Made by a program: the position numbers and the translations under genes
DNA from: Desulfobacterales bacterium
GTDB lineage: Bacteria > Desulfobacterota > Desulfobacteria > Desulfobacterales > JARGFK01
Direction of reading: 5' to 3'
Assembly: GCA_029211065.1 (NCBI GenBank)
Contig: JARGFK010000047.1
Span: 1-33,086 of the forward strand
DNA length: 33,086 bases
The notes under the pieces: model-generated
Told to the model about the DNA's origin: nothing
Database searches by the model: none
The model's input: only the letters and a program-made list of their open reading frames with translations
In this document: positions 3,056 through 27,690 of the stretch, one piece after another
Position numbering within the stretch: position 1 is the first letter of the stretch
How the letters are laid out: every line of letters begins with the position of its first letter

Positions 3056-3472
3056 ATGAATTTAATCGATGTGGATATCGACAATCTCATTCCCCACCGC
3101 CGCCCCCTGCGGCTGATCGATGAGATTTTTGATGTGGATAAAGACTCAGCCGTGTCTGCGGCAACCATCAGCCCGCAATGGCCGTTGCTGACAGGCGGCG
3201 CGGCAAACCCGATTGTGCTGATCGAGCTAGTGGCCCAAACCGCCGCAGCTCTGGGGGGATTAAACCAAAAGAAAGGGGCCTCCGGCAACAGAGGCTTAAT
3301 TGTCGGGATTAAATCCGCAAATTTTTTCATTGATGAAATCCCTTTGCACAGCCGGATCATCACCCGGTCGACAACCCGTTTGCTGATTGAAAATTTCAAG
3401 GAAATTACAGGCGTCGTGAAAATGGATGACGCCGTTATCGCCGAGATCTCGTTGCAGAGTGTATCATTATGA
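3056..3472 (+). CDS. 3-hydroxyacyl-ACP dehydratase-like hotdog protein
   Basis: The protein has 138 residues, the size of FabZ and of the ApeI/ApeP dehydratases. It should remove water from 3-hydroxyacyl-ACP to give trans-2-enoyl-ACP. The FabZ-type motif LIPHRRPLRLIDEI carries the expected catalytic His14. The central-helix motif NPIVLIELVAQTAAALGG carries Glu57 at the position of the FabZ acid. The first gene of a plus-strand operon, it overlaps the LolA-like gene by ATGA. With the adjacent KS/CLF pair it supplies the dehydration half of an iterative polyene-type extension cycle; no ketoreductase or ACP is present nearby. The ATG at 3056 lacks an obvious Shine-Dalgarno sequence. Confidence 0.85.
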   Translation: MNLIDVDIDNLIPHRRPLRLIDEIFDVDKDSAVSAATISPQWPLLTGGAANPIVLIELVAQTAAALGGLNQKKGASGNRGLIVGIKSANFFIDEIPLHSRIITRSTTRLLIENFKEITGVVKMDDAVIAEISLQSVSL

Positions 3473-4089
3473 ACAAAGTCAGACGCTATCAGGCCGTCGC
3501 CGCCGCGATGGTGCTCTTATCGGCCCGGCTGTGTTTCGGCTGGGCCGATACCTGGGACGGTTTAAAGGCTGCCACCGGCACCATTTCCTCTGTCAGCGCG
3601 ACATTCGTCCAGGAAAAGCACATGAAAGTTCTAATCCGGCCGCTGATATCCGAGGGCCTTCTTTTTTATCAAACCCCGGATTCGCTGCGCTGGGAATATC
3701 AGCGCCCGATTCAGAGCATTCTGATAGCCCACGCCGGCAAAACCAAAAAATTCATCCGCAGGGACGGAAAGATCATCGCCGATGCCGCTGCCAACGCCCC
3801 GGCCATGCAGTTCGTGATCGAGGAGATTTCGCGCTGGCTCAAGGGGCGCTTTGATGAAAACCCGGTGTTCACCGCCAGCCTGGCGCCCGGCCGCCGGATT
3901 GTCCTCACCCCCATCTATAAAGGCATTGCCGAAATGATCCAGCGAATTGAGCTGGTGTTGTCCGAGCGCCCCGGCATCATGGAGTCGGTCATGATTTATG
4001 AAAATGAAAATTCCTATACCCGGCTCAAGTTTTCAAATGTCGAACTCAACCGCCCGCTGGACCCCAGGCTGTTTGAGGACGTTCAATGA
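3469..4089 (+). CDS. LolA-like outer-membrane lipoprotein carrier protein
   Basis: This is a 206-residue secreted protein with a signal peptide (basic MNKVRR, then hydrophobic residues 8-24, cleavage near FGWA). The mature part has the LolA-family features FVQEK (about 46-50), SEGLLFYQTPDSLRWEY (about 61-77) and a later ILI..GK..KFI strand. LolA proteins form a half-barrel that carries acyl chains across the periplasm. Paralogues of this type are regular members of aryl-polyene clusters, where they are thought to help move the lipid product. It is coupled to both neighbours by ATGA overlaps, so it probably acts on the product of this operon rather than on bulk lipoproteins. An AsmA-like or other lipid-carrier role cannot be excluded. 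Confidence 0.8.
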   Translation: MNKVRRYQAVAAAMVLLSARLCFGWADTWDGLKAATGTISSVSATFVQEKHMKVLIRPLISEGLLFYQTPDSLRWEYQRPIQSILIAHAGKTKKFIRRDGKIIADAAANAPAMQFVIEEISRWLKGRFDENPVFTASLAPGRRIVLTPIYKGIAEMIQRIELVLSERPGIMESVMIYENENSYTRLKFSNVELNRPLDPRLFEDVQ

Positions 4090-4760
4090 AGCGGTTTTGT
4101 TTTTTACTGGGCATCCTGTTCCTTATCGCTGCCTGCGGCACGCTCCCTAAAGTTGACCCGGTCAGCGGGATGCTCCCGGACGGCCCCCGGGAATGCCGCC
4201 GGCTGTTTTTCCAGGGACGCTGGCAGCTCCAGCACGCCATCGTAGCCACCTTGCCGGGAGGACAGCAAAACATGCTCATGGGCATCAGCATCGTTTCTGC
4301 CGGGAGCGGCAGCATCCGCTCGATCCTGATGACCATTGAAGGCCTGGTCGTTTTCGAAGCTGAATATGACCGGGACATCCGGATTGTGCGGGCTGTGTCG
4401 CCGTTTGATTCCGACCACTTCGCCCAGGGGCTGATCAATGACCTCCGGCTGATTTTTTTCATGCCCGAAGGCGCTTTGGTTGAAACCGGAAGGCTGCAAA
4501 ACGGATCGACCCTTTGCCGGTATCGTCAATCCGACCGGCTGGTGGTGGATATCGTCAGAAATACCGACGATCACTGGGAGCTCCGGCAATATAGCCGCTG
4601 GTTCAGGAAAAAGCGCACGGTGGATATTTTTTTCAACGACAACTTCCGATTCAACGGTTTTCATGCCCCCAGCCGGCTGACGCTTACCACTTTTGGATAT
4701 GCCGGTTATACCCTTGACATGGACCTGATTGAAGCGGTTTCCTTAGAGGAGCACAAATGA
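4086..4760 (+). CDS. DUF3261-like outer-membrane lipoprotein
   Basis: This 224-residue protein begins with a lipoprotein signal (MKRFCFLLGILFLIAAC, lipobox LIAAC, lipidated Cys17). The residue after it is Gly, with no Asp at +2, consistent with outer-membrane sorting. The remainder is beta-rich, with no catalytic motif that I recognise. Size, lipobox and position after a LolA-like gene match the DUF3261 lipoproteins of aryl-polyene clusters, which are presumed to receive or anchor the polyene lipid at the outer membrane. The assignment rests mainly on context. In canonical clusters an MMPL-type exporter normally sits between the LolA-like and DUF3261 genes; here they are fused by an ATGA overlap with nothing between. 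Confidence 0.68.
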   Translation: MKRFCFLLGILFLIAACGTLPKVDPVSGMLPDGPRECRRLFFQGRWQLQHAIVATLPGGQQNMLMGISIVSAGSGSIRSILMTIEGLVVFEAEYDRDIRIVRAVSPFDSDHFAQGLINDLRLIFFMPEGALVETGRLQNGSTLCRYRQSDRLVVDIVRNTDDHWELRQYSRWFRKKRTVDIFFNDNFRFNGFHAPSRLTLTTFGYAGYTLDMDLIEAVSLEEHK

Positions 4761-6019
4761 AGTTCAAACTCATATACCCCAAATGGCCGAAGCTCTCCCG
4801 GCAGACCGAGTTTCACCTGCCGCCGCACGGACCGGTGGTGTTTGCCGCCACGGTGCCGGATGACGTCGAAATTGAATTTATTGATGAAAATCTCGAGCAG
4901 ATCGATTTTGACGATCCAATCGATTTTGTCGGCATTTCCATGATGCTCACCCTTCAGGTTAAGCGGGGCTGGCAGATCGCGGATATTTACCGCGCCAGGG
5001 GCGTCAAGGTCATTTTCGGCGGAATTGCGACCATGCTGCATGCCGAAGAAACCATGACCCATGCCGACTCGGTTTTTCTCGGTGAAGCCGAAGGCCGCAT
5101 GGAAAAGGTTTTTGAGGATTTTAAAAAGGGGCGGCTGCAACCGCTGTACGACTATCTGGCGGACCAGGCCCCCATCGAGATCATCGGCGCCGCCCGGCGC
5201 GATATTCTGAAAAGAGACCTCTACAATTACAAGGGCATCCAAATGGTCGATCTGGTTCACGCCTCGCGCGGGTGCCGCTTTCACTGCTATCCCTGCGCAG
5301 TGGCCTACCTGGGCGGCAAAAAGTTCCGGCCGCGCCCCATTGACACGGTCATATCAGAAATGGAAAACATCCCGAACAACCGCCTCTTTCTGGTGGACAA
5401 CTCCCTGGCCCAGGATACCCGCTGGGAACTGGAGCTGTTCCGGGAAATGATCCCCTTAAAGAAAAAGTGGTGCAGCCATCCCATCGAGGACAAGCCCGAA
5501 GTCCTGGATCTGGCCGCCCGGGCCGGCGCCTGGTATGTTTACCAGGCCGTGTTCGACACTTCCGATTACATCCGCGAGAGAATCCAGCGCTACCATGACC
5601 ATGACATCGGGGTAGAGGCCACCGTTCTGCTGGGATTGGACAGTCATACCGAAGATGATATCAAGCGCCTCGTCGATTTTCTGCTGGAAATCAACCTGGA
5701 CCTGGCCGAGTTCACCGTCTTGACCCCCTTTCCCCATACCAAGGCCTATGATGAGCTGAAACAGCAGAATCGGATCTTTTCCTTTGACTGGGATGAATAT
5801 TCGGCCGACAAGGTGGTGTATCATCCCAAAAAGATGTCGGCTGACAGGCTGCAGGAGCTGCTGCAGTATGCCTGGGATACTTTCTATGGGGATGAGCCCC
5901 AGGAAATAAAGATGTTCAATCTCTTTCAGCGGGTGGTTCGAAAGGAAATGGCGGACAATACCTTCAGGCCCCGGGACCGGGCCCTGGCGTCGCGCGCCTT
6001 CGGCCGGGACCTGTCATAA
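4757..6019 (+). CDS. B12-binding-type radical SAM enzyme (first copy)
   Basis: This protein has 420 residues. Residues about 25-125 look like a Rossmann-type cobalamin-binding domain (VGISMML, then VKVIFGGIATMLHAEE and VFLGEAEG); no DxHxxG motif is seen, as is common in class B radical SAM methylases. The radical SAM domain begins near residue 165, and Cys173, Cys177 and Cys180 form the CxxxCxxC 4Fe-4S site (RGCRFHCYPC). Such enzymes methylate or rearrange unactivated carbons using 5'-deoxyadenosyl radical chemistry. The substrate is unknown; coupling by an ATGA overlap to the DUF3261-like gene suggests it modifies the lipid or polyene made here. It is the last gene of the operon and runs convergently into the MFS gene, 10 nt away. 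Confidence 0.88.
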   Translation: MKFKLIYPKWPKLSRQTEFHLPPHGPVVFAATVPDDVEIEFIDENLEQIDFDDPIDFVGISMMLTLQVKRGWQIADIYRARGVKVIFGGIATMLHAEETMTHADSVFLGEAEGRMEKVFEDFKKGRLQPLYDYLADQAPIEIIGAARRDILKRDLYNYKGIQMVDLVHASRGCRFHCYPCAVAYLGGKKFRPRPIDTVISEMENIPNNRLFLVDNSLAQDTRWELELFREMIPLKKKWCSHPIEDKPEVLDLAARAGAWYVYQAVFDTSDYIRERIQRYHDHDIGVEATVLLGLDSHTEDDIKRLVDFLLEINLDLAEFTVLTPFPHTKAYDELKQQNRIFSFDWDEYSADKVVYHPKKMSADRLQELLQYAWDTFYGDEPQEIKMFNLFQRVVRKEMADNTFRPRDRALASRAFGRDLS

Positions 6020-16039: not shown

Positions 16040-16372
16040 TCAATCCTGTAATTGATCAACGGAGATGTCCATCGCTCCGGCCAGTTTTTCCAGTGTCGCC
16101 GTCCGCAATTCGTTGTTGTTTTTTTCCATCTGGGAGAGTGCTGCCTGTGATATACCGGCGCGCTTTGCGACCTCCCTCTGGGTAAAACCAAGATGTGTCC
16201 GCCACGCCTTTACTAAATTCATTCCTTTTTTGACTATCAGCCCCACCACCTCATGGGGAATAGATGCATCCCTGTCTTTGGGGAGTAGACTCAGATAATC
16301 TTCATAAGGAATAATGGCAAATGCAGGCTTGCCGTCTTGCTTTATGATTTGTACATCAGTAAGTGTGCCCAT
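16040..16372 (-). CDS. XRE-family antitoxin with Phd-like N-terminal extension
   Basis: This 110-residue protein has a helix-turn-helix domain at about 53-107 (LGFTQREVAKRAGISQAALS), of the XRE/HigA type. The preceding 50 residues (TDVQIIKQDGKPAFAIIPYEDYLSL) look like a Phd/YefM-type antitoxin strand-helix segment. It is the second gene of a minus-strand operon and overlaps the RelE-like toxin by 17 nt. The toxin-first order matches higBA-type systems. The antitoxin should neutralise the toxin and repress the operon by binding the palindrome upstream of the toxin start. Confidence 0.85.
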   Translation of the reverse strand: MGTLTDVQIIKQDGKPAFAIIPYEDYLSLLPKDRDASIPHEVVGLIVKKGMNLVKAWRTHLGFTQREVAKRAGISQAALSQMEKNNNELRTATLEKLAGAMDISVDQLQD

Positions 16373-16616
16373 CTCTTATTTTGACCTCCTGAATTTCAAT
16401 AATCTCAAGTGAGTCGGTGAAGATAACCCGCCAGCGGTCTACCCTGAGACGATATTCATCTCTGCCTTTGAGTTTTTTAACACCTTTGCAATCAGGGAAC
16501 GATTTTAGGTTACCCACGTTATCGTAAATTCTTTCTCGGGCACGGACATCCTTTATTTTTCGCAGTTGCCGCAGTGCCTTTGTCTTCCACCTGATCGCTT
16601 TCACCTGACCAACCAT
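16356..16616 (-). CDS. RelE/ParE-family toxin
   Basis: This 86-residue basic protein has the family plan: VKAIRWKTKALRQLRKI (strand and helix), the central LKSFPDCKGVKKLKG, then DEYRLRVDRWRVIFTD with the conserved basic residues of the RelE active face, and the final strands ending IQEVKIRDGHTY. Homologues cleave mRNA at the ribosome (RelE/HigB) or inhibit gyrase (ParE); the residues cannot decide here, though the conserved Arg pair and C-terminal His/Tyr favour an mRNase. It is the first gene of a two-gene operon with its antitoxin. The ATG directly abuts a 17-bp palindrome and has no Shine-Dalgarno, suggesting a leaderless transcript. Confidence 0.85.
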   Translation of the reverse strand: MVGQVKAIRWKTKALRQLRKIKDVRARERIYDNVGNLKSFPDCKGVKKLKGRDEYRLRVDRWRVIFTDSLEIIEIQEVKIRDGHTY

Positions 16617-16792: not shown

Positions 16793-18307
16793 CTAAAGCC
16801 TCCCAGCTTCCCCGCCTATAAATTCCTCCAGATCCTTGAACACATTCACACCGGCCTGGCGTTCCATGTCCAGCTGGTAGCGGCCTTCCCAGCCGAGCTT
16901 TTTCAACCTGCGGCCAAGAAAGAATCGCATCAGCGGACGGAACGCATATGTCCAGATCGGCACCCACAGACGTCCCTGGCGCTTGGCCCGCTCGGAGGGC
17001 TCCCACCATCCGATGATCTTCTGGCGGTGGAGCCAGACCAGGTATTGCAACTGCTTATCGTCCAGGTGCCGGGTCTTCACATTGGCCCAGATGCCGTTAT
17101 ACCACTTGTAATCACGGGAATTTGTCACCAGCCCCTGCTCCAGGAGCTGCCCGCGCATGACGGTTTTGGGATAGGGGGTCAGGATCTGGCAGTAGGCCGA
17201 GTCTGCATCAAGGGACTTCAGAAAGTTATAGTTTTCAATAATATCCGCCTCGTCATCATCCGGAAAGCCGAAAATCAATCCGGCCACCACCATGATGCCG
17301 TACTTGCGGCACATGTGCACGGCTTTGCGCGAGGCCTCCACGATGTTGCCCTTGCGCGCTGCAACCAGATTTTTCTTGGACACATTTTCAATCCCCAGGA
17401 AGATGGATTTAATGCCCGCCAGGGACATTTTGCGCACCATCTCTTCGTTTCTGGACATGGAAACGCAATCGGCCTGGACGATCAGGTTCAGCCCCTTATA
17501 ATTGCGGGCGATAATGGCATCACAGATGGCGATGACCCGTTCGGGATCCAGCACCAGGTTGTCGTCCGCCACAAAAATCAGGCGCGTCCGGCGGTTGTAA
17601 TAAATATCGTCAATATCCGCCAGAACCCGTTCAATGGGATACGTCCGGAAGGTCTGGCCGTACATATGCTTCATGCTGCAGAACGAACAGGTGCGCGTGC
17701 ATCCCCGGGAGGTTTCCATGACCTCTACCCTGGAAAGCATGACATGGTACCCCGAGGTTAAGCGGCGGCTGTCCCGGATGGGGATTTTAAGCCCGGACAA
17801 ATCCAGCAGCTCGCCCATGGGGTTGTGCACAAACCGGCCGTTTTTTTTATAGGAAAGCGAAGGAATGTCTTCCATCCGCTCTTTTCCTGCCAGAGCATTG
17901 ACCAGCCGCCGGCAGGCGTCTTCTCCTTCGCCCCGGATCATAAAGTCGATCAGGTCGGCTTCGGGAGATGCGGCGATCTCTTCGTGCATCAACGTGGCGT
18001 GGTACCCGCCGATAACGATTTTCGCATCGGGCAGGAGCTTTTTTATCAACCGGATCAGTTTGACACAGGTGTCGTACTGCCAGGCCATGGCCGACAGACC
18101 CACAAGTTCCGGTCGAATTTTCAGCAGGGTTTTCGTCAGATACTTTCGCAGCCGGCTGCGCTTGCGGATAAGATCGATGATATAGACCCGGTGGTCTTCA
18201 TCGATGTTCGCACCGACGCTGGAAATGCCGCAATTGGGCATATGAAAGGCGGCTTTGTGCATGATTACCGGCGCTACGTCCGGCATGGACATTAAAACAA
18301 TTTTCAT
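16793..18307 (-). CDS. B12-binding-type radical SAM enzyme (second copy)
   Basis: This protein has 504 residues. Residues about 1-140 form a cobalamin-binding-type domain (LVGLSAMAW, KIVIGGYHATLMHEE, IRGEGED), without a DxHxxG motif. Cys203, Cys207 and Cys210 in RGCTRTCSFC form the CxxxCxxC 4Fe-4S site of the radical SAM domain. Later landmarks are FVADDNLVLD, SIFLGIENVS, VVAGLIFGFPDD and a basic C-terminal part of about 100 residues. The architecture matches class B radical SAM methylases and related carbon-skeleton enzymes such as those of hopanoid and ladderane-associated loci. It starts 16 nt after the stop of the ketosynthase gene, so the two are co-transcribed and may act on the same acyl chain. 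The first radical SAM protein of the window is shorter by 84 residues, and the two are not duplicates by eye. Confidence 0.9.
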   Translation of the reverse strand: MKIVLMSMPDVAPVIMHKAAFHMPNCGISSVGANIDEDHRVYIIDLIRKRSRLRKYLTKTLLKIRPELVGLSAMAWQYDTCVKLIRLIKKLLPDAKIVIGGYHATLMHEEIAASPEADLIDFMIRGEGEDACRRLVNALAGKERMEDIPSLSYKKNGRFVHNPMGELLDLSGLKIPIRDSRRLTSGYHVMLSRVEVMETSRGCTRTCSFCSMKHMYGQTFRTYPIERVLADIDDIYYNRRTRLIFVADDNLVLDPERVIAICDAIIARNYKGLNLIVQADCVSMSRNEEMVRKMSLAGIKSIFLGIENVSKKNLVAARKGNIVEASRKAVHMCRKYGIMVVAGLIFGFPDDDEADIIENYNFLKSLDADSAYCQILTPYPKTVMRGQLLEQGLVTNSRDYKWYNGIWANVKTRHLDDKQLQYLVWLHRQKIIGWWEPSERAKRQGRLWVPIWTYAFRPLMRFFLGRRLKKLGWEGRYQLDMERQAGVNVFKDLEEFIGGEAGRL

Positions 18308-18323
18308 TAAATCTTACCCAAGA

Positions 18324-19562
18324 TTACAGGTCGAATTTTTTAATCAACAGACAGGTATTCACCCCGCCAAAGGCAAAATTCTGAACAGCGGCGATGCGGA
18401 TATCTTTTTCCAGAAGGCTCACCGCATGTTGGATCATGGCACACCTTTCGTCGATCTTCTTCAGGTTCAGCGTCGGCGCGACAAACCCGGCTTCCATCAT
18501 ATAAAGGGTGATGATTGTTTCAATTGCGCCGCAGGACGCCATGGTGTGCCCCATGTAGCTCTTCAGTCCGGCCACCACCGGTGAATGGCCGTATATCTTT
18601 GCGATGGCCTGGGCCTCGATCACATCCCCCATCTTGGTGCCGGTGGCATGGGCACTGACAAAATCCACGGCGCCCGGACCGATGCCGGCATCCTTGAGCG
18701 CCAGCCGGATGGTTTCGGTAATGCCGTCCAGATTGGGCAGAATCAGATCGCCGCCGTTGTTGTTGCATGAAAACCCGATGATTTCCCCCAGGATGGGCGC
18801 CCCCCGTTTTCTGGCAAATTCATATTCCTCCAGCATCACGGCGCCGGCGCCTTCGCCCACCACCAGGCCGTCCCGCTGGGCGTCGAAGGGCCGCGGCGTC
18901 AGGTGGGGGGTGTCATTGAACGCGGTTGAACAGGCCAGCAGGTTGTCGAACACGGCAACCGTGGTGGTGTCATATTCGTCGGCCCCGCCGCACAACATGG
19001 CGTCCTGCATGCCGTATTTGACCATTTCATAACCAAAGCCGATGGATTGGCTGCTGGTGGTGCAGGCCGTGGATGAGGAGATGACCCGGCCGGTGATGCC
19101 GAACATCTTGGTGATGTTCACGGCAGTGGTGTGGACCATTGACTTTAAATAATCCACCGCGCCGATGGAGGCAAACTTGGCATCGGTTTGACCGAAGAAG
19201 CATCTGTATATCTGCCGCTGGATGGTGGGGCTGCCGTGAGTGGAGCCAAAGGCCACCCCCAGGCGGCCGGAGGTGATAAAGTCGGCATCCAGGCCGCAGG
19301 CCGCCAAAACCTCCTTGGCAACCTGGCAGGCGTAAAAAGAGACCGGCCCCATGGTTTTGCGATGATGGCGCGTAAAATCGTACGCCACCGGGTAATCCAC
19401 CGTCCCATAGACACCGGAGTGGATATAAGCGGTAAGGAGATCATCCGAGCGCAATTTTTTAACGCCGGAAATACCCGCCTGCAGATGCTTGACGATTTCC
19501 GCTTGGCCATGCCCGATGGGCGTTATCGCCGACGCCCCTGTTACGACGACTCTTCGTGCCAT
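18324..19562 (-). CDS. beta-ketoacyl-ACP synthase (FabF-type, third KS, ApeR-like)
   Basis: The protein has 412 residues when started at the second in-frame ATG (MARRVVVTG), which has GGGG at 6 nt. An ATG 6 nt earlier is possible, and residue numbers here count from that earlier ATG. The triad is intact: Cys169 in SSTACTTSSQS, His307 in SAHATGTKMGD, and Lys336 and His341 in LKSYMGHTMASCG. The residues after the nucleophile (TTSSQS) and the CNNNGGDLILPN insert differ from housekeeping FabF. The AHATGT form and its place with an acyltransferase and glycosyltransferase recall the extra KS (ApeR) of aryl-polyene clusters. It sits directly upstream of the second radical SAM gene and downstream of the LPLAT gene. 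Confidence 0.9.
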   Translation of the reverse strand: MARRVVVTGASAITPIGHGQAEIVKHLQAGISGVKKLRSDDLLTAYIHSGVYGTVDYPVAYDFTRHHRKTMGPVSFYACQVAKEVLAACGLDADFITSGRLGVAFGSTHGSPTIQRQIYRCFFGQTDAKFASIGAVDYLKSMVHTTAVNITKMFGITGRVISSSTACTTSSQSIGFGYEMVKYGMQDAMLCGGADEYDTTTVAVFDNLLACSTAFNDTPHLTPRPFDAQRDGLVVGEGAGAVMLEEYEFARKRGAPILGEIIGFSCNNNGGDLILPNLDGITETIRLALKDAGIGPGAVDFVSAHATGTKMGDVIEAQAIAKIYGHSPVVAGLKSYMGHTMASCGAIETIITLYMMEAGFVAPTLNLKKIDERCAMIQHAVSLLEKDIRIAAVQNFAFGGVNTCLLIKKFDL

Positions 19563-19714
19563 TGTCATCCCCGTGAAGCTTTACAATGATTTACTGCCTG
19601 GTTAAAACAACTTCTCATAAATTTTCATGCAATATTCAGTTAATACATCATCCCACAGCTTAATTCAAAATAAATATCCCCATATTCCCCGGATCGCAGC
19701 AGGAATCGGAACGG

Positions 19715-20602
19715 CTATTGCAGCTTTAAATCTAAAAAAGGCTCAAAGTGATACCACTGCAGCGGGTGTCGCCTCAGGGTTTCCTCCAGGATATCTGCGT
19801 ACTGCTGGGCAGCGTGTTGAATCGCCGCCGTTCTTTCCCGCCGGGAGGATACCCGGATGTAGATGGGTTCCGACATCGTGAAATGATATTGCCGCTTGCC
19901 GGTCCGGAAGGCAAAAAAAATAAAGATGGGGGCGCCGGAAAGGAGCGCAAGCAAATAGGGCGCTTCAGGCAGGCGGACGTCATGCCCCAGAAATTTTACC
20001 GGAACGGTACGCTGGTCCTGTTTCCAGACAAGATCCCCGGTAAGGGAAACCGTTCCGCCCGATTCGATAAACTTGATGCCCTCAATGAAGTCCAGCGCAG
20101 AGCCGCCCTGCTCGTCCACAGCGATGATGGTGATGCCGCTTTGGGAAAGACTTTCCTTTTGAATCCCCTCCAGCTGTTCTTTGTACTTGACGCCCATATA
20201 CAGCATGAGCCGGAGGTCCTCCTGTTTGCGCTTTAAAATATGCGCGGCAACCTCCCAGTTCCCCATGTGCGACATGAGCAGGATGCCGCCTTCTTTTCTG
20301 CGGCAGGCGTCTTCCAGGTGCGCCAACCCCTGGGAAGTGGATGTAATGTCATCGCGTTCCGTTAGCAGGAACCGGTCGAAAAACACATCCGTAAAATTAT
20401 GAAACTGCCGCCAGGCGCACCAGCGGTGATACAGCCCGCTTCGGTCCGGAAACAATACACGATAAAACCGGACGCTGTTTCTGACCCTGAAGGGAAAAAA
20501 GAGATAATAGCCGGTGGCGACAAACCAGGCAAAAACAGCAAAAACCCACAACCCCAGCGTCCGGGACAGGTTGATTATAATTTTATAGAAGAGAATGCGC
20601 AT
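19715..20602 (-). CDS. LpxL/HtrB-type lysophospholipid acyltransferase
   Basis: This 295-residue inner-membrane-anchored protein has an N-terminal membrane helix (about 15-36). The acyltransferase HX4E motif is present as SHMGNWE, with His112 and Glu117. Further family features are GGTVSLTGDLVWKQDQRTVPVKFLG and the substrate-loop residues LPEAPYLLALLSGAPI. LpxL-type enzymes transfer acyl groups from acyl-ACP to lipid A precursors or other lipids. LPLAT proteins of this kind also occur in aryl-polyene clusters, where they attach the polyene chain to a lipid head. The location between the GT2 gene and the ketosynthase supports the latter, although a housekeeping lipid A role cannot be excluded. 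Confidence 0.88.
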   Translation of the reverse strand: MRILFYKIIINLSRTLGLWVFAVFAWFVATGYYLFFPFRVRNSVRFYRVLFPDRSGLYHRWCAWRQFHNFTDVFFDRFLLTERDDITSTSQGLAHLEDACRRKEGGILLMSHMGNWEVAAHILKRKQEDLRLMLYMGVKYKEQLEGIQKESLSQSGITIIAVDEQGGSALDFIEGIKFIESGGTVSLTGDLVWKQDQRTVPVKFLGHDVRLPEAPYLLALLSGAPIFIFFAFRTGKRQYHFTMSEPIYIRVSSRRERTAAIQHAAQQYADILEETLRRHPLQWYHFEPFLDLKLQ

Positions 20603-20727: not shown

Positions 20728-21465
20728 TCACTCCATTTTCTTGGGATATAACCATGAAAACACCCTTCGCAAAATCAGCCGGGTAAAGGTGCTTGAATTT
20801 CGCATGAAATCAACAAAGGGCCGAAAGTGGGATATTCTTTCCCCTGCGGCCGCATAATTGACCCTAACAGGGGCTTCCACCACAGGGATTCCGTTCCACC
20901 CGGCCCTGACAAGGATTTCAACTTCAAACTGGTAGCGCCGGGCAACGACCCCCAGACTCATGGCCTCGGGCAACGGATAAATCCGGAACCCGCTCTGGGA
21001 ATCCCGCATACGGGGGCCGCCTGAAACATACACCCAGAAATTCGAGAATTTTCGCCCGAACTGGCTGGTCCAGGGGACATTTTTTGCCGCCATCCCCGTG
21101 CGCATCCCCACCATGATGGGCCGCTGACCGGCCGGGATGGCGTTTATCAGATTCAAGGCATCTTCGGGATGGTGTTGCCCGTCCCCGTCGATGGTGATGG
21201 CCCAGTCCGCTATTTTAGACGCTTCGGCAAACCCGGTCAGCAACGCCGCACCCTTTCCCCGGTTCTCATCATGGCGCAAAAGGTGAATGCCGCTAAGGGA
21301 CGCCAAGTTATCTTGAATGGAATCTGTTGAGCCGTCATCCACGACAAATACCGGCAGGTTCAACCCCAACGCTTTTTCGACAACCGCCGCCACCGCCTGC
21401 CCATGATTGAACACCGGTATGATAACAGCGAATTTTCCCTTGTTGCTGGTTGCGGATGAATCCAT
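20728..21465 (-). CDS. family 2 glycosyltransferase (DPM1/DPG synthase-like)
   Basis: This 245-residue GT-A protein has KFAVIIPVFNHG at the N terminus, VVDDGSTD (about 41-48) and DGDGQHHPEDA (about 93-103), whose Asp-x-Asp binds the metal-nucleotide sugar. SQSGFRIY and a Glu-containing FEVEILVRA region form the acceptor site. There is no long C-terminal membrane domain; the tail is short and basic. Relatives transfer a sugar from a nucleotide donor to polyprenyl phosphate or to lipids. In aryl-polyene loci GT2 enzymes are regular components, often fused to acyltransferases. Here GT2 and LPLAT are separate genes, 125 nt apart. Sugar and acceptor are unknown. Confidence 0.88.
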   Translation of the reverse strand: MDSSATSNKGKFAVIIPVFNHGQAVAAVVEKALGLNLPVFVVDDGSTDSIQDNLASLSGIHLLRHDENRGKGAALLTGFAEASKIADWAITIDGDGQHHPEDALNLINAIPAGQRPIMVGMRTGMAAKNVPWTSQFGRKFSNFWVYVSGGPRMRDSQSGFRIYPLPEAMSLGVVARRYQFEVEILVRAGWNGIPVVEAPVRVNYAAAGERISHFRPFVDFMRNSSTFTRLILRRVFSWLYPKKME

Positions 21466-21845
21466 ATTTCATTTTTTTCCAAAATCGAAAAAGTAAATAT
21501 CCGACCCCAGAAGAGATTAGTCTTTTTGGAATTTGGTGCTTGTAATTTGTATTTTTAAAAACAAGACCACATCACCCATCAAGGCACACAGCGATTTGAC
21601 AAGCGCAATCCCGCCAACGAGACTGAATCCCAATTGTTATAAATTGGATGTATTCTTTACGTCATGCCGGACACGATCCGGCATCCAGGAACATATGGAC
21701 TTGAAAATGTTCTGGATTCCGGGTCAAGCCCGGAATGACAAAATTTTGGAGCTCTATTTTTTTAATTGCAACACAGCCGCCAACGGCGGGATGAGCATTG
21801 GCACGAATTGCGCAAAGCAGCATAGCGGCCTCAGGCGCATTTTTT
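21466..21845. other. intergenic region with two dispersed repeats
   Basis: No gene supported in this stretch between the GT2 gene and the end of the DhaL-DegV fusion gene. It holds a 79-bp inverted-repeat element (21661-21739) and a partial relative of the 13787-13918 element (21792-21850). Its size may mean that the fusion gene and GT2 are separate transcription units. Confidence 0.5.
21661..21739. repeat. 79-bp imperfect inverted-repeat element
   Basis: The element begins GTCATGCCGG and ends CCGGAATGAC. Its two 28-bp ends match at about 22 positions when one is reverse-complemented, and each end also contains a small internal hairpin (CCGG..CCGG). This is the widespread type of intergenic palindrome that reads 'GTCATGCCGG...ATCCAG' in many proteobacteria. 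It is probably non-autonomous, or an RNA-level structure. Confidence 0.6.
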
Positions 21846-21850
21846 TCAAA
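21792..21850. repeat. partial diverged relative of the 132-bp element
   Basis: Starting at TGAGCATT, this stretch aligns without gaps to about 13861-13915, roughly 60% identical by eye, sharing GGCCTCAG and TTTT landmarks. The left terminal repeat is not found. It runs across the stop of the DhaL-DegV fusion gene, so the repeat may have supplied its 3' end. Resemblance by chance is not excluded. Confidence 0.3.
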
Positions 21851-23567
21851 AGCCTGCTTCCGGCAAAAAAGCCACCCCCCAAGTCCCCGGCCCCATATGG
21901 GCGCCGGAAGTCAGGGACAGCGGCTGCAAACGGATTTCCGCCCGGGGGTACAGGGCTTCAATCCCTTTCCAAACCGTTTCATTGACCCATTCGAAATTGT
22001 CCGAATATTCCAGCATAATGAACGGGGCGGACTCACTAGTGAAGCTCTCTTCCAGGCGATCCAGCGCAAACGCCAGCTGCTCTTTGGGGTTCTTTACCAT
22101 ACCGACCTTTTTGGCCCCTTCGGCCAGCGGGCTGATAATCGGTTTGGCCCGGATCATGTCGCCGAAAAACGCACCGGACTTGGAAAGCCGGCCGCCGGCC
22201 GCCAGATATTTCAGCTTGTCCAGAAAGACGTACTCTTTGCACTGATCCACCGCTTTTTCGGCAAAATCAACCACCGACTCAAAATCATTGCCTTTGGCAA
22301 CGAACCGGGCGGTTGCCAGAACGATGGTCCCCAGTCTTCCGGACGCCGCCCCCGTATCAATGACCGTCAGACGATTCTCCGGATCGTTTTTCTTTTTCCA
22401 TTCCTTGGCAACGCCGTAATTTCCCGTAAAAACGGACCCCACAGACAGATATAAAACCCGCTGATACTGCTGTACGACCCGCAGATAATGCTGGTGCCGT
22501 TCAAATACAGATGCCTGGGAGGTCGACACCTTTTCGCCCCGGCGCATGGACTGATAGAGATGGGGCGCGGAAAAACGGGTTTCCGGCAGGGATTCCTCCC
22601 CGGCCGTAATATAACTGTCCAGAAGGGTAAACCCCAGGCTGCGCGCATCCTCACGGGTCAGGGAACCGGCCGCGTCGGTCATGATATGAACGGAGCCCCG
22701 GACCTGCTGTTGTTTAAATTCCGCCGCCTGAACAGCGAGATTGTCATCCGTCCACTTTACAATTTTTCCGAAAGATTTAATCCGTTCTTCCGCCGCCCGG
22801 GCATTTTGGGTGTGAAAGTGAACCTTTACATAGTCCCCGTGGGGAATCACCACGACGCTTTCACCGTATTCCGAGAAGGATTCGATCTTTTCCGGGTCCG
22901 CCGCTTCCAGACGGATAATCGTATCCACACAGTGCCCTGCCACAGGGTCTTCCCTGAAAGCGGGCTGGACCCGCAGCTGCCCCTTGAAAGTTTTTGTAAC
23001 CGGATCAGCGGCAGCCGTCGCACCTGTCAGGCTGCTGAAAAAACCGCTGAAAAATATAAACATCCCCAATGCGCCGGAATCAACCACGCCGGCGGCCTTG
23101 AGCCGGGGCAGGAGATCAGGCGTGCTTTTTACAGCCCTTTCAAGCCGGGCCGTCAGATCGGCGGCATATTCGGAATTGTGAATAAAATCATCTGCTTCTA
23201 AATATTCCACCAGCGCGTCAAAAACCGTCAGCATGGTGCCGGGCAGGGGATTATACACCGCCTGGAAGGCCAGATCCCTTCCGTCTCGGGCTGCCTGGAG
23301 GAGCCCTTCGCCGGAATCCGCCGCTAAAAACCCGCTAAAAAAACGGGCGGCAATGTTTCCGGAGTTTCCCCTGGCCTGCAGCATGAGTTGATGAATCGTT
23401 TTTTCGCGGTCACTGTCCAGGGATCTGAGGGGGGCAAGACTGACTGTCAGGTTGCGCCCGGTATCACCGTCGGCAACCGGGAACACGTTGATCTTGTCGA
23501 GCAAATCCGACCAGGCCGTTAAACACTCGAAACCGGCGACATGTGCGGTTTTAAAATCAGACATCAT
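21846..23567 (-). CDS. FakA-FakB fusion: DhaL-type kinase plus DegV fatty-acid-binding domain
   Basis: This 573-residue protein combines the two parts of bacterial fatty acid kinase, normally separate in Firmicutes. Residues about 1-190 are a DhaL/FakA ATP-binding domain: NVFPVADGDTGRNL holds Asp33 and Asp35 for Mg-ATP, followed by ARGNSGN. A FakA-like middle domain follows, with VVVIPHGDYVKVHFHTQN (about 235-255). Residues about 290-573 are a DegV/FakB domain (VHIMTDAAGSLT, SQASVFERH, LDKLKYLAAGGRLSKSG, ending SGAHMGPGTWGVAFLP). The expected reaction is phosphorylation of a bound free fatty acid to acyl phosphate, a donor for lipid synthesis. The gene lies among lipid-synthesis genes on the same strand, between the thioesterase and the GT2. 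The first two codons are both ATG. Confidence 0.86.
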   Translation of the reverse strand: MMSDFKTAHVAGFECLTAWSDLLDKINVFPVADGDTGRNLTVSLAPLRSLDSDREKTIHQLMLQARGNSGNIAARFFSGFLAADSGEGLLQAARDGRDLAFQAVYNPLPGTMLTVFDALVEYLEADDFIHNSEYAADLTARLERAVKSTPDLLPRLKAAGVVDSGALGMFIFFSGFFSSLTGATAAADPVTKTFKGQLRVQPAFREDPVAGHCVDTIIRLEAADPEKIESFSEYGESVVVIPHGDYVKVHFHTQNARAAEERIKSFGKIVKWTDDNLAVQAAEFKQQQVRGSVHIMTDAAGSLTREDARSLGFTLLDSYITAGEESLPETRFSAPHLYQSMRRGEKVSTSQASVFERHQHYLRVVQQYQRVLYLSVGSVFTGNYGVAKEWKKKNDPENRLTVIDTGAASGRLGTIVLATARFVAKGNDFESVVDFAEKAVDQCKEYVFLDKLKYLAAGGRLSKSGAFFGDMIRAKPIISPLAEGAKKVGMVKNPKEQLAFALDRLEESFTSESAPFIMLEYSDNFEWVNETVWKGIEALYPRAEIRLQPLSLTSGAHMGPGTWGVAFLPEAGF

Positions 23568-23820: not shown

Positions 23821-24240
23821 CTAAAACCCCAGGGCCGCACGAATATCCCCGGGTATTTCAAACATGATTTCCATATCGGGATGTCTCACCGCAACCTGTT
23901 CACTCCTGCCCCTGGCGCAAATCTGGTTGTTTTTAATCAGCCGGATTTCAAAATCCATGACAATTTTATACTGGGCCTCAACAACCGTTGCGATAACTTT
24001 AAACTCATCCAGATACCGCAAGGACGCGATATACTTTGTCGAGGTCTTGGTGAGGGGAAAAAGATACTGCGTCGTTTTAAAATAATCAAAGAGGTCCACC
24101 CCGCCCTGAACAAAAAGCGCCGACCGGGCAATATCAAAATATTTCAAATAATTGCCATGCCAAACCATCTGGAGGGGGTCCAGGTCATGGAATGGAACCT
24201 TGAGGACAACTTCACAACGTCTATTTTGCGCTTTGCTCAT
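23821..24240 (-). CDS. YbgC-like acyl-CoA/ACP thioesterase (4HBT hotdog)
   Basis: This 139-residue hotdog protein has the 4-hydroxybenzoyl-CoA thioesterase signature near the N terminus, VPFHDLDPLQMVWHGNYLKY. The catalytic aspartate should be Asp21. The central helix, tolerant strands and length all fit the family. It would hydrolyse acyl-CoA or acyl-ACP in the cytoplasm. A thioesterase of this fold is part of most aryl-polyene clusters, so release or editing of the extended chain is plausible; it could also feed free acids to the neighbouring FakA-FakB fusion. The gap of about 250 bp to that gene is gene-free and contains GGGGC..GCCCC near 23731-23748. Confidence 0.84.
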   Translation of the reverse strand: MSKAQNRRCEVVLKVPFHDLDPLQMVWHGNYLKYFDIARSALFVQGGVDLFDYFKTTQYLFPLTKTSTKYIASLRYLDEFKVIATVVEAQYKIVMDFEIRLIKNNQICARGRSEQVAVRHPDMEIMFEIPGDIRAALGF

Positions 24241-27264: not shown

Positions 27265-27690
27265 TTATAAAAAACTTGCTATCACGCTCATCGCTGTACT
27301 GGGGGTCACTATCTGGATGCCCTTATAGCTTTCATGCTCAAGCAAATGGCTATCTCCTGAAACAATGAGGGACGCGTTGTTTTCCGATGCAAGTCCCAGG
27401 AAGATATTATCGAAAGGATCTTGTTGGATAATGTCCGGTGTGGATTCAGGTGAGGGAATATAGGATATAAGATTCATGAAATAGGAAAAAGCTTCGGCAG
27501 GGGTTGTTCCCAACGAAGAAAACCTATTTGAAAACTTTGGATGTTTCAGGACATTCTTAACTTCATTCAGTGTCTCGTCGCATTCAAGAATACGGATAAT
27601 GCCGTTTCTGCATAATTTTAAGATTTGATTAGGGGCTCCCCCCCACAGCAAGCCGGAAATCGTCACATTCGTGTCGATGATGATTTTCAA
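27265..27690 (-). CDS. PIN-domain toxin (putative endoribonuclease)
   Basis: This 141-residue protein follows the PIN (COG1569-type) layout: Asp6 in IIIDTNV, an acidic residue near Glu43 (LNEVKNVL), Asp94 in DPFDNIFLGLASE, and Asp113 in VSGDSHLL. These acidic residues hold Mg2+ for RNA cleavage. It is the downstream gene of a toxin-antitoxin pair on the minus strand and overlaps the antitoxin by 4 nt (ATGA). Family members cut tRNA or mRNA when the antitoxin is degraded. The immediate neighbourhood is AT-rich, as is common for mobile stabilisation modules. Confidence 0.85.
   Translation of the reverse strand: MKIIIDTNVTISGLLWGGAPNQILKLCRNGIIRILECDETLNEVKNVLKHPKFSNRFSSLGTTPAEAFSYFMNLISYIPSPESTPDIIQQDPFDNIFLGLASENNASLIVSGDSHLLEHESYKGIQIVTPSTAMSVIASFL

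Follow-up and report, generated by a model that had tools for sequence, protein, structure and literature searches.

The window analysed here is a stretch of 33,086 nucleotides from a Desulfobacterales bacterium (contig JARGFK010000047.1, assembly GCA_029211065.1). On its reverse strand, an open reading frame of 573 aa (21846-23567) codes for a Dak2 domain, a FakA middle domain and a DegV/FakB domain, in this order and in a single chain. This ORF was analyzed with Pfam, NCBIfam, a PDB sequence search, a 69-sequence alignment, and a structure model with fold search. The Pfam matches cover residues 30-176 (Dak2, E 1.2e-17), 211-283 (FakA-like_M, E 1.4e-10) and 293-569 (DegV, full-length match, E 3.3e-43). 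The limits of the parts are 1-184 for FakA_N (DhaL), about 205-285 for FakA_L/middle and 292-570 for DegV/FakB. The FakA_C docking domain (PF13684) has no Pfam match in this ORF, and its place is taken by the full DegV domain. In the PDB sequence search, the N-terminal side matches FakA and the C-terminal side matches FakB/DegV lipid binders. The sequence-only reading of this DNA had described a DhaL ATP site, a FakA middle domain and a complete DegV/FakB domain in one chain, and had proposed a domain search and structure prediction as checks. Pfam with its three domains, the residue alignment and the AlphaFold2 model (built on the 69-sequence alignment; pLDDT 91, pTM 0.90) agree with that description. 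In the fold search, the DegV part is closest to the lipid-binding DegV protein 1pzx (Z 33.2, rmsd 2.4 over 282 residues), and the N-terminal part matches S. aureus FakA_N (8vit; Z 21.4, rmsd 2.0 over 188 residues). Foldseek aligned the model to whole FakA (7w7h) with a large rmsd, which is expected because the domain arrangements differ. The protein scores below the cut-offs of the NCBIfam FakA and FakB1 models. No other Fak or DegV protein was found in a search of its own genome. An assembly artefact as the origin of the fusion is ruled out, since about 20 of the 96 genomes of the order, and about 60 contigs, carry it in full length. The ORF is thus confirmed as a single-chain fatty acid kinase, its activity being predicted from sequence and model, and as a member of a widespread fusion architecture.

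Residue conservation was assessed in an alignment of the window protein and 68 relatives. Reference residues of the S. aureus enzyme are Asn32, Asp38, Asp40, Thr41, Asn82 and Asp185, as well as Cys240, His282 and His284 of FakA, and Arg173 of FakB1 (PMC9136124). FakB Thr62, Ser95 and His270 have been added at the fatty acid carboxylate network (PMC8892158). The ATP/Mg site of the DhaL domain (Asn27, Asp33, Asp35, Thr36, Asn68 and Asp163) is invariant in all 69 sequences, with Asp33 and Asp35 aligning to S. aureus Asp38 and Asp40. The sequence-only reading had raised a loss of ATP-site residues relative to FakA as a test, and none is lost. Equally invariant (69/69) is the catalytic set of FakA_L (Cys213, His250 and His252). 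In the FakB part, where residues were placed by sequence alignment, Arg460 and His557 are found in 69/69 sequences and Thr349 in 67/69 (Ser in the other two). The counterpart of FakB Ser95 seems to be Gly377, with Ser378 adjoining; this placement is uncertain, as it comes from alignments to other DegV proteins and not to S. aureus directly. The window enzyme thus shares with the two-protein FakA + FakB of S. aureus the DhaL ATP site, the Cys/His/His set of FakA_L and the FakB fold with its Arg, Thr and His (PMC9136124, PMC8892158). It differs in being one chain, in lacking FakA_C, in an altered loop on the carboxylate side and in scoring below the NCBIfam cut-offs.

The neighbours of the kinase named in the sequence-only reading (a thioesterase, an acyltransferase and a ketosynthase) are real by Pfam and NCBIfam, and a GT2 glycosyltransferase is found besides. 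Directly upstream of the kinase lies a 4HBT hotdog thioesterase (23821-24240, reverse strand; Pfam 4HBT_2, 5.4e-10), the counterpart of E. coli ApeK (phmmer 9.6e-21, 33% identity). On the other side are, all on the reverse strand, the GT2 glycosyltransferase (20728-21465; Pfam 7.9e-21), the counterpart of the N-terminal half of ApeJ (phmmer to ApeJ 8-232, 2.2e-35), and a lipid-A-type acyltransferase (19715-20602; Pfam 4.9e-15), the counterpart of its C-terminal half (phmmer to ApeJ 358-551, 2e-18), which co-occurs with the kinase (see below). They are followed, on the same strand, by a ketosynthase with active-site Cys (18324-19568; TAC motif), the counterpart of ApeR (phmmer 2.6e-91, 39% identity), and by a B12-binding radical SAM protein (16793-18307; Pfam) that recurs in the cluster. 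The gaps between the kinase and its neighbours are 253 and 380 bases. The gap between the kinase and the GT2 gene (21500-21845) holds a palindromic stretch (tccggcatccagg ... ccgggtcaagcccggaatgac) which looks like a dispersed genome repeat. Small genes at 16040-16616 and 27265-27690 resemble a toxin-antitoxin pair (RelE-like + HTH) and a PIN-like protein, as judged from their sequences.

A further group of genes is found at the start of the window. On the reverse strand, a second ketosynthase with active-site Cys (1461-2735; TAC motif) is the counterpart of ApeO (phmmer 9.5e-62, 43% identity). It adjoins a ketosynthase-like protein of the chain-length-factor type (245-1597; Pfam), which is devoid of the active-site Cys, TVNHRE replacing TAC. 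On the forward strand are an ApeP/FabZ-like hotdog dehydratase (3056-3472; NCBIfam fabZ 7e-9, below cut-off; phmmer to ApeP 3.2e-8), a LolA-like periplasmic carrier in the ApeL position (3469-4089; Pfam LolA 1.1e-10; NCBIfam LolA2_flexi 8.8e-26, below cut-off), a putative lipoprotein (4086-4760) and a second B12-binding/radical SAM protein (4757-6019), assigned by Pfam matches below curated cut-offs and by recurrence. The lipoprotein has no Pfam or NCBIfam match; it was assigned to the ApeN (LolB-like) position because it recurs after LolA. As phmmer gave no match to ApeL and ApeN for the window LolA and the following lipoprotein, these two are assigned by family or position only. The rest of the cluster is found on another contig of the same genome, C67, which codes for an ACP, a PlsC-like protein, an MMPL protein, a KS and a CrtI-like protein. 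In a phmmer search with the E. coli Ape proteins, ApeM, ApeF and ApeD each had a counterpart on C67, that of ApeM carrying a fused methyltransferase domain. The MMPL exporter at 6529-9612 of C67 (L149) has a C-terminal methyltransferase domain and resembles ApeM joined to an ApeB-like activity.

Taken by its genes, from which alone its product is predicted, the cluster resembles those for outer-membrane aryl-polyene (APE) lipids. Homologues of the KS/CLF pair, the dehydratase, ApeK, ApeJ, ApeD, ApeM and the ACP are present across the window and C67 (phmmer). Of the proteins of the E. coli CFT073 APE cluster, ApeR, O, K, J and P have their counterparts in the window, and ApeM, F and D have theirs on C67. 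ApeJ is split into two genes here, and the B12 radical SAM and CrtI-like proteins are extra. In E. coli CFT073, ApeK and ApeJ are neighbours and the cluster has no kinase, whereas their counterparts in the window flank the kinase. The presence of a thioesterase had been called unexpected, which does not hold, as ApeK adjoins ApeJ in the E. coli cluster as well (PMC8253772). Searches of the window and C67, two contigs that end within the cluster, gave no ApeH starter ligase, and the ApeQ ketoreductase was not found in the window; both proteins are present in related clusters (ApeQ, for example, in L104). By gene families, there is also a likeness to the FAS-like clusters of Kuenenia and Desulfotalea (ladderane/polyunsaturated lipids, PMC2649909), which have FabF paralogs, a B12 radical SAM protein, a phytoene-desaturase-like protein and a GT in common with the window cluster, and an AMP-ligase in common with the Desulfobulbales type of kinase cluster. 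The text on those clusters names no kinase (PMC2649909).

In relatives, the neighbours of the kinase are a thioesterase, GT2, lipid-A-type acyltransferase, ACP, ketosynthase, PlsC-like acyltransferase, MMPL exporter, LolA and B12 radical SAM protein, and partly an aromatic amino acid lyase or AMP-ligase. In several of them, the kinase gene overlaps that of the thioesterase or GT2 or is separated from it by a minimal gap. A locus was counted as APE-like when it has at least two of the recurrent cluster families, and this is the case for 57 of the 64 clade loci. The context in close relatives is thus lipid-related, on a point where the sequence-only reading had allowed for the opposite. Among 95 relatives from the same order, 21 have the kinase (one being a fragment at a contig end), 21 have the ApeJ-like acyltransferase, and 19 have both, while 72 of the 74 kinase-free genomes are also devoid of the acyltransferase (Fisher p = 9e-16, a guide only, as species share ancestry). 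In several of the 19 genomes, the two genes are on different contigs.

The fusion as such is not the surprise. Ten distant relatives (L133-L142, 26-29% identity) served as a control for fusions outside the cluster, and in all ten, Pfam found the three domains of the window kinase in an unchanged order, so that their classification as ordinary unfused FakA was ruled out. Such fusions occur in at least seven phyla; the control set includes Nitrospinota, Listeria newyorkensis, Acholeplasmataceae, Calditrichota, Spirochaetota, Gemmatimonadota, Bipolaricaulota and a gammaproteobacterium. None of the ten is in an APE-type cluster, and the implication of the sequence-only reading that the fusion is peculiar to a lipid setting was dropped. 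What they share with the window clade is the three domains and their order. In a quick tree of the FakA part, they separate from it with an SH-aLRT of 100, and there are fixed differences in the carboxylate-side loop (381-383), with T-G-N in the window clade and S-G-T in the control fusions; position 377 is Gly in the window clade and mostly Ser in the controls. The window kinase thus belongs to a diverged clade that is committed to APE-type lipid clusters. Because of the altered loop (TGN for SGT; Gly 377), the ligand of this clade may be something other than a plain fatty acid. Our literature search, which had most subscription journals outside its reach, returned no paper on DegV with aryl polyenes, on FakA/FakB in Deltaproteobacteria or on a DegV-Dak2 fatty acid kinase fusion.

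The clade is not uniform in what precedes the kinase. In 70 loci, the gene directly upstream codes for a thioesterase in 31, an AMP-ligase in 17 and an aromatic amino acid lyase in 9. In the Desulfobulbales version, the AMP-ligase is in the place of the thioesterase, and in Desulfobulbales and Allochromatium, the gene immediately upstream of the kinase codes for a relative of ApeH. Allochromatium palmeri (L115), a purple sulfur bacterium, has a cluster of the Desulfobulbales type. Its kinase groups with that of Desulfobulbus rhabdoformis (SH-aLRT 99), pointing to horizontal transfer. Close thioesterases are missing from six genomes of the AMP-ligase type, which have only distant ones (at most 30% identity) away from the cluster; for comparison, two genomes of the thioesterase type have a thioesterase with 62-65% identity. 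The partnership with a thioesterase that had been proposed for this kinase is therefore not general. Hydrolysis followed by re-activation may apply to the window, but does not hold for the clade as a whole. A general role of the kinase as a replacement for the AMP-ligase was also ruled out, since many loci have both.

We consider it fairly probable that the ORF codes for a self-contained acyl kinase, dedicated to the APE-type cluster and supplying acyl phosphate for lipid assembly; activity, substrate and acceptor are predicted from sequence, model and gene context. The FakB/DegV domain would take up a free long-chain acid, the DhaL domain would bind Mg-ATP, and the middle domain would supply Cys/His/His and probably a dimer contact, so that the three domains jointly would form the acyl phosphate. 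The tethered FakB would stand in for FakA_C, which serves the two-protein enzyme as docking domain. In S. aureus, FakA_C is the docking site, and FakA_NL by itself retains kinase activity, with a KM for FakB of 0.99 vs 0.09 µM (PMC9136124). As its defect is this higher KM, tethering could make FakA_C dispensable. The ApeK-like thioesterase would release the free acid from the ACP, or the membrane would supply it, and the acyl phosphate would pass to the acyltransferases of the cluster for an exported lipid. In the proposed APE pathway, the acid is freed by ApeK and then joined to an anchor by ApeD/ApeJ, with the anchor and the attachment step being unsettled, and deletion mutants in these genes accumulate acid intermediates (PMC8253772). 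This would be a natural place for a re-activation step. A complete Fak with intact residues and a link to a lipid cluster makes acyl-phosphate formation from free acid the best reading, and this part of the earlier proposal stands, whereas the obligatory thioesterase does not. Against the proposed role, E. coli makes its APE lipid without a kinase in the cluster, so the pathway does not generally require acyl phosphate, and about a quarter of the loci have an AMP-ligase rather than a thioesterase upstream. There is no PlsY within the cluster, and no acyltransferase from the cluster's families is known to accept acyl phosphate.

None of the 96 genomes of the order, that of the window among them, gave a match to PlsX (PF02504, TIGR00182). 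The search works, since PlsX was detected in Desulfobulbales and Allochromatium genomes. The absence of PlsX is by itself no pointer to the kinase, because most genomes of the order lack the kinase too. With PlsX absent order-wide and the kinase present in about a fifth of the sample, a general replacement of PlsX by the kinase is ruled out. Several genomes of the order have other long ORFs (e.g., L027 1492-3774) with a DegV domain at the end of a protein of 760-1000 aa, preceded by acidic repeats.

These data bear on a general salvage kinase that merely lies beside the lipid cluster and feeds exogenous or turned-over fatty acids into membrane phospholipids via PlsY. The kinase is the sole Fak in its own genome, and with PlsY present and PlsX absent, it is the only acyl-phosphate source recognised there. 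It nevertheless tracks the cluster, as the acyltransferase is found in 19/21 kinase genomes and is missing from 72/74 kinase-free ones, and most of the genomes without PlsX manage without the kinase, which makes the salvage function unlikely. We judge it slightly less likely still that the kinase activates an aromatic or short starter, for example from the lyase, as an acyl phosphate and so takes the role of the ApeH ligase. The missing ApeH-like ligase in the window and C67, the lyase that often adjoins the kinase and a carboxylate-side loop unlike that of other fusions would fit such a function; yet more than 30 loci have both the kinase and an ApeH-like ligase (directly upstream in the 17 mentioned), the DegV fold matches binders of long-chain acids, and the lyase is often missing in the window's type of cluster. 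The scores for the FakA and FakB models, which are lower than those of other fusions, could indicate a lipid-binding or delivery protein that has lost its kinase function. This is very improbable, given that the ATP-site residues and Cys/His/His are invariant in 69/69 sequences, which is unlikely without selection for catalysis.

A bolder reading, which we consider less likely than not, is that the clade consists of polyketide-acid kinases whose substrate is not an ordinary fatty acid but the end product of the KS/CLF, be it a polyene or some other unusual acid. If this were true, the lipids would be assembled via an acyl-phosphate intermediate, a route that is not described for APE-type lipids in the cited literature. 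With an acyl kinase between the release and attachment enzymes, the attachment of a finished aryl-polyene-type acid would become testable with one purified protein. The active site of S. aureus Fak is as yet unseen in its assembled state (PMC9136124), and the window enzyme would offer a minimal single-chain Fak for structural study.
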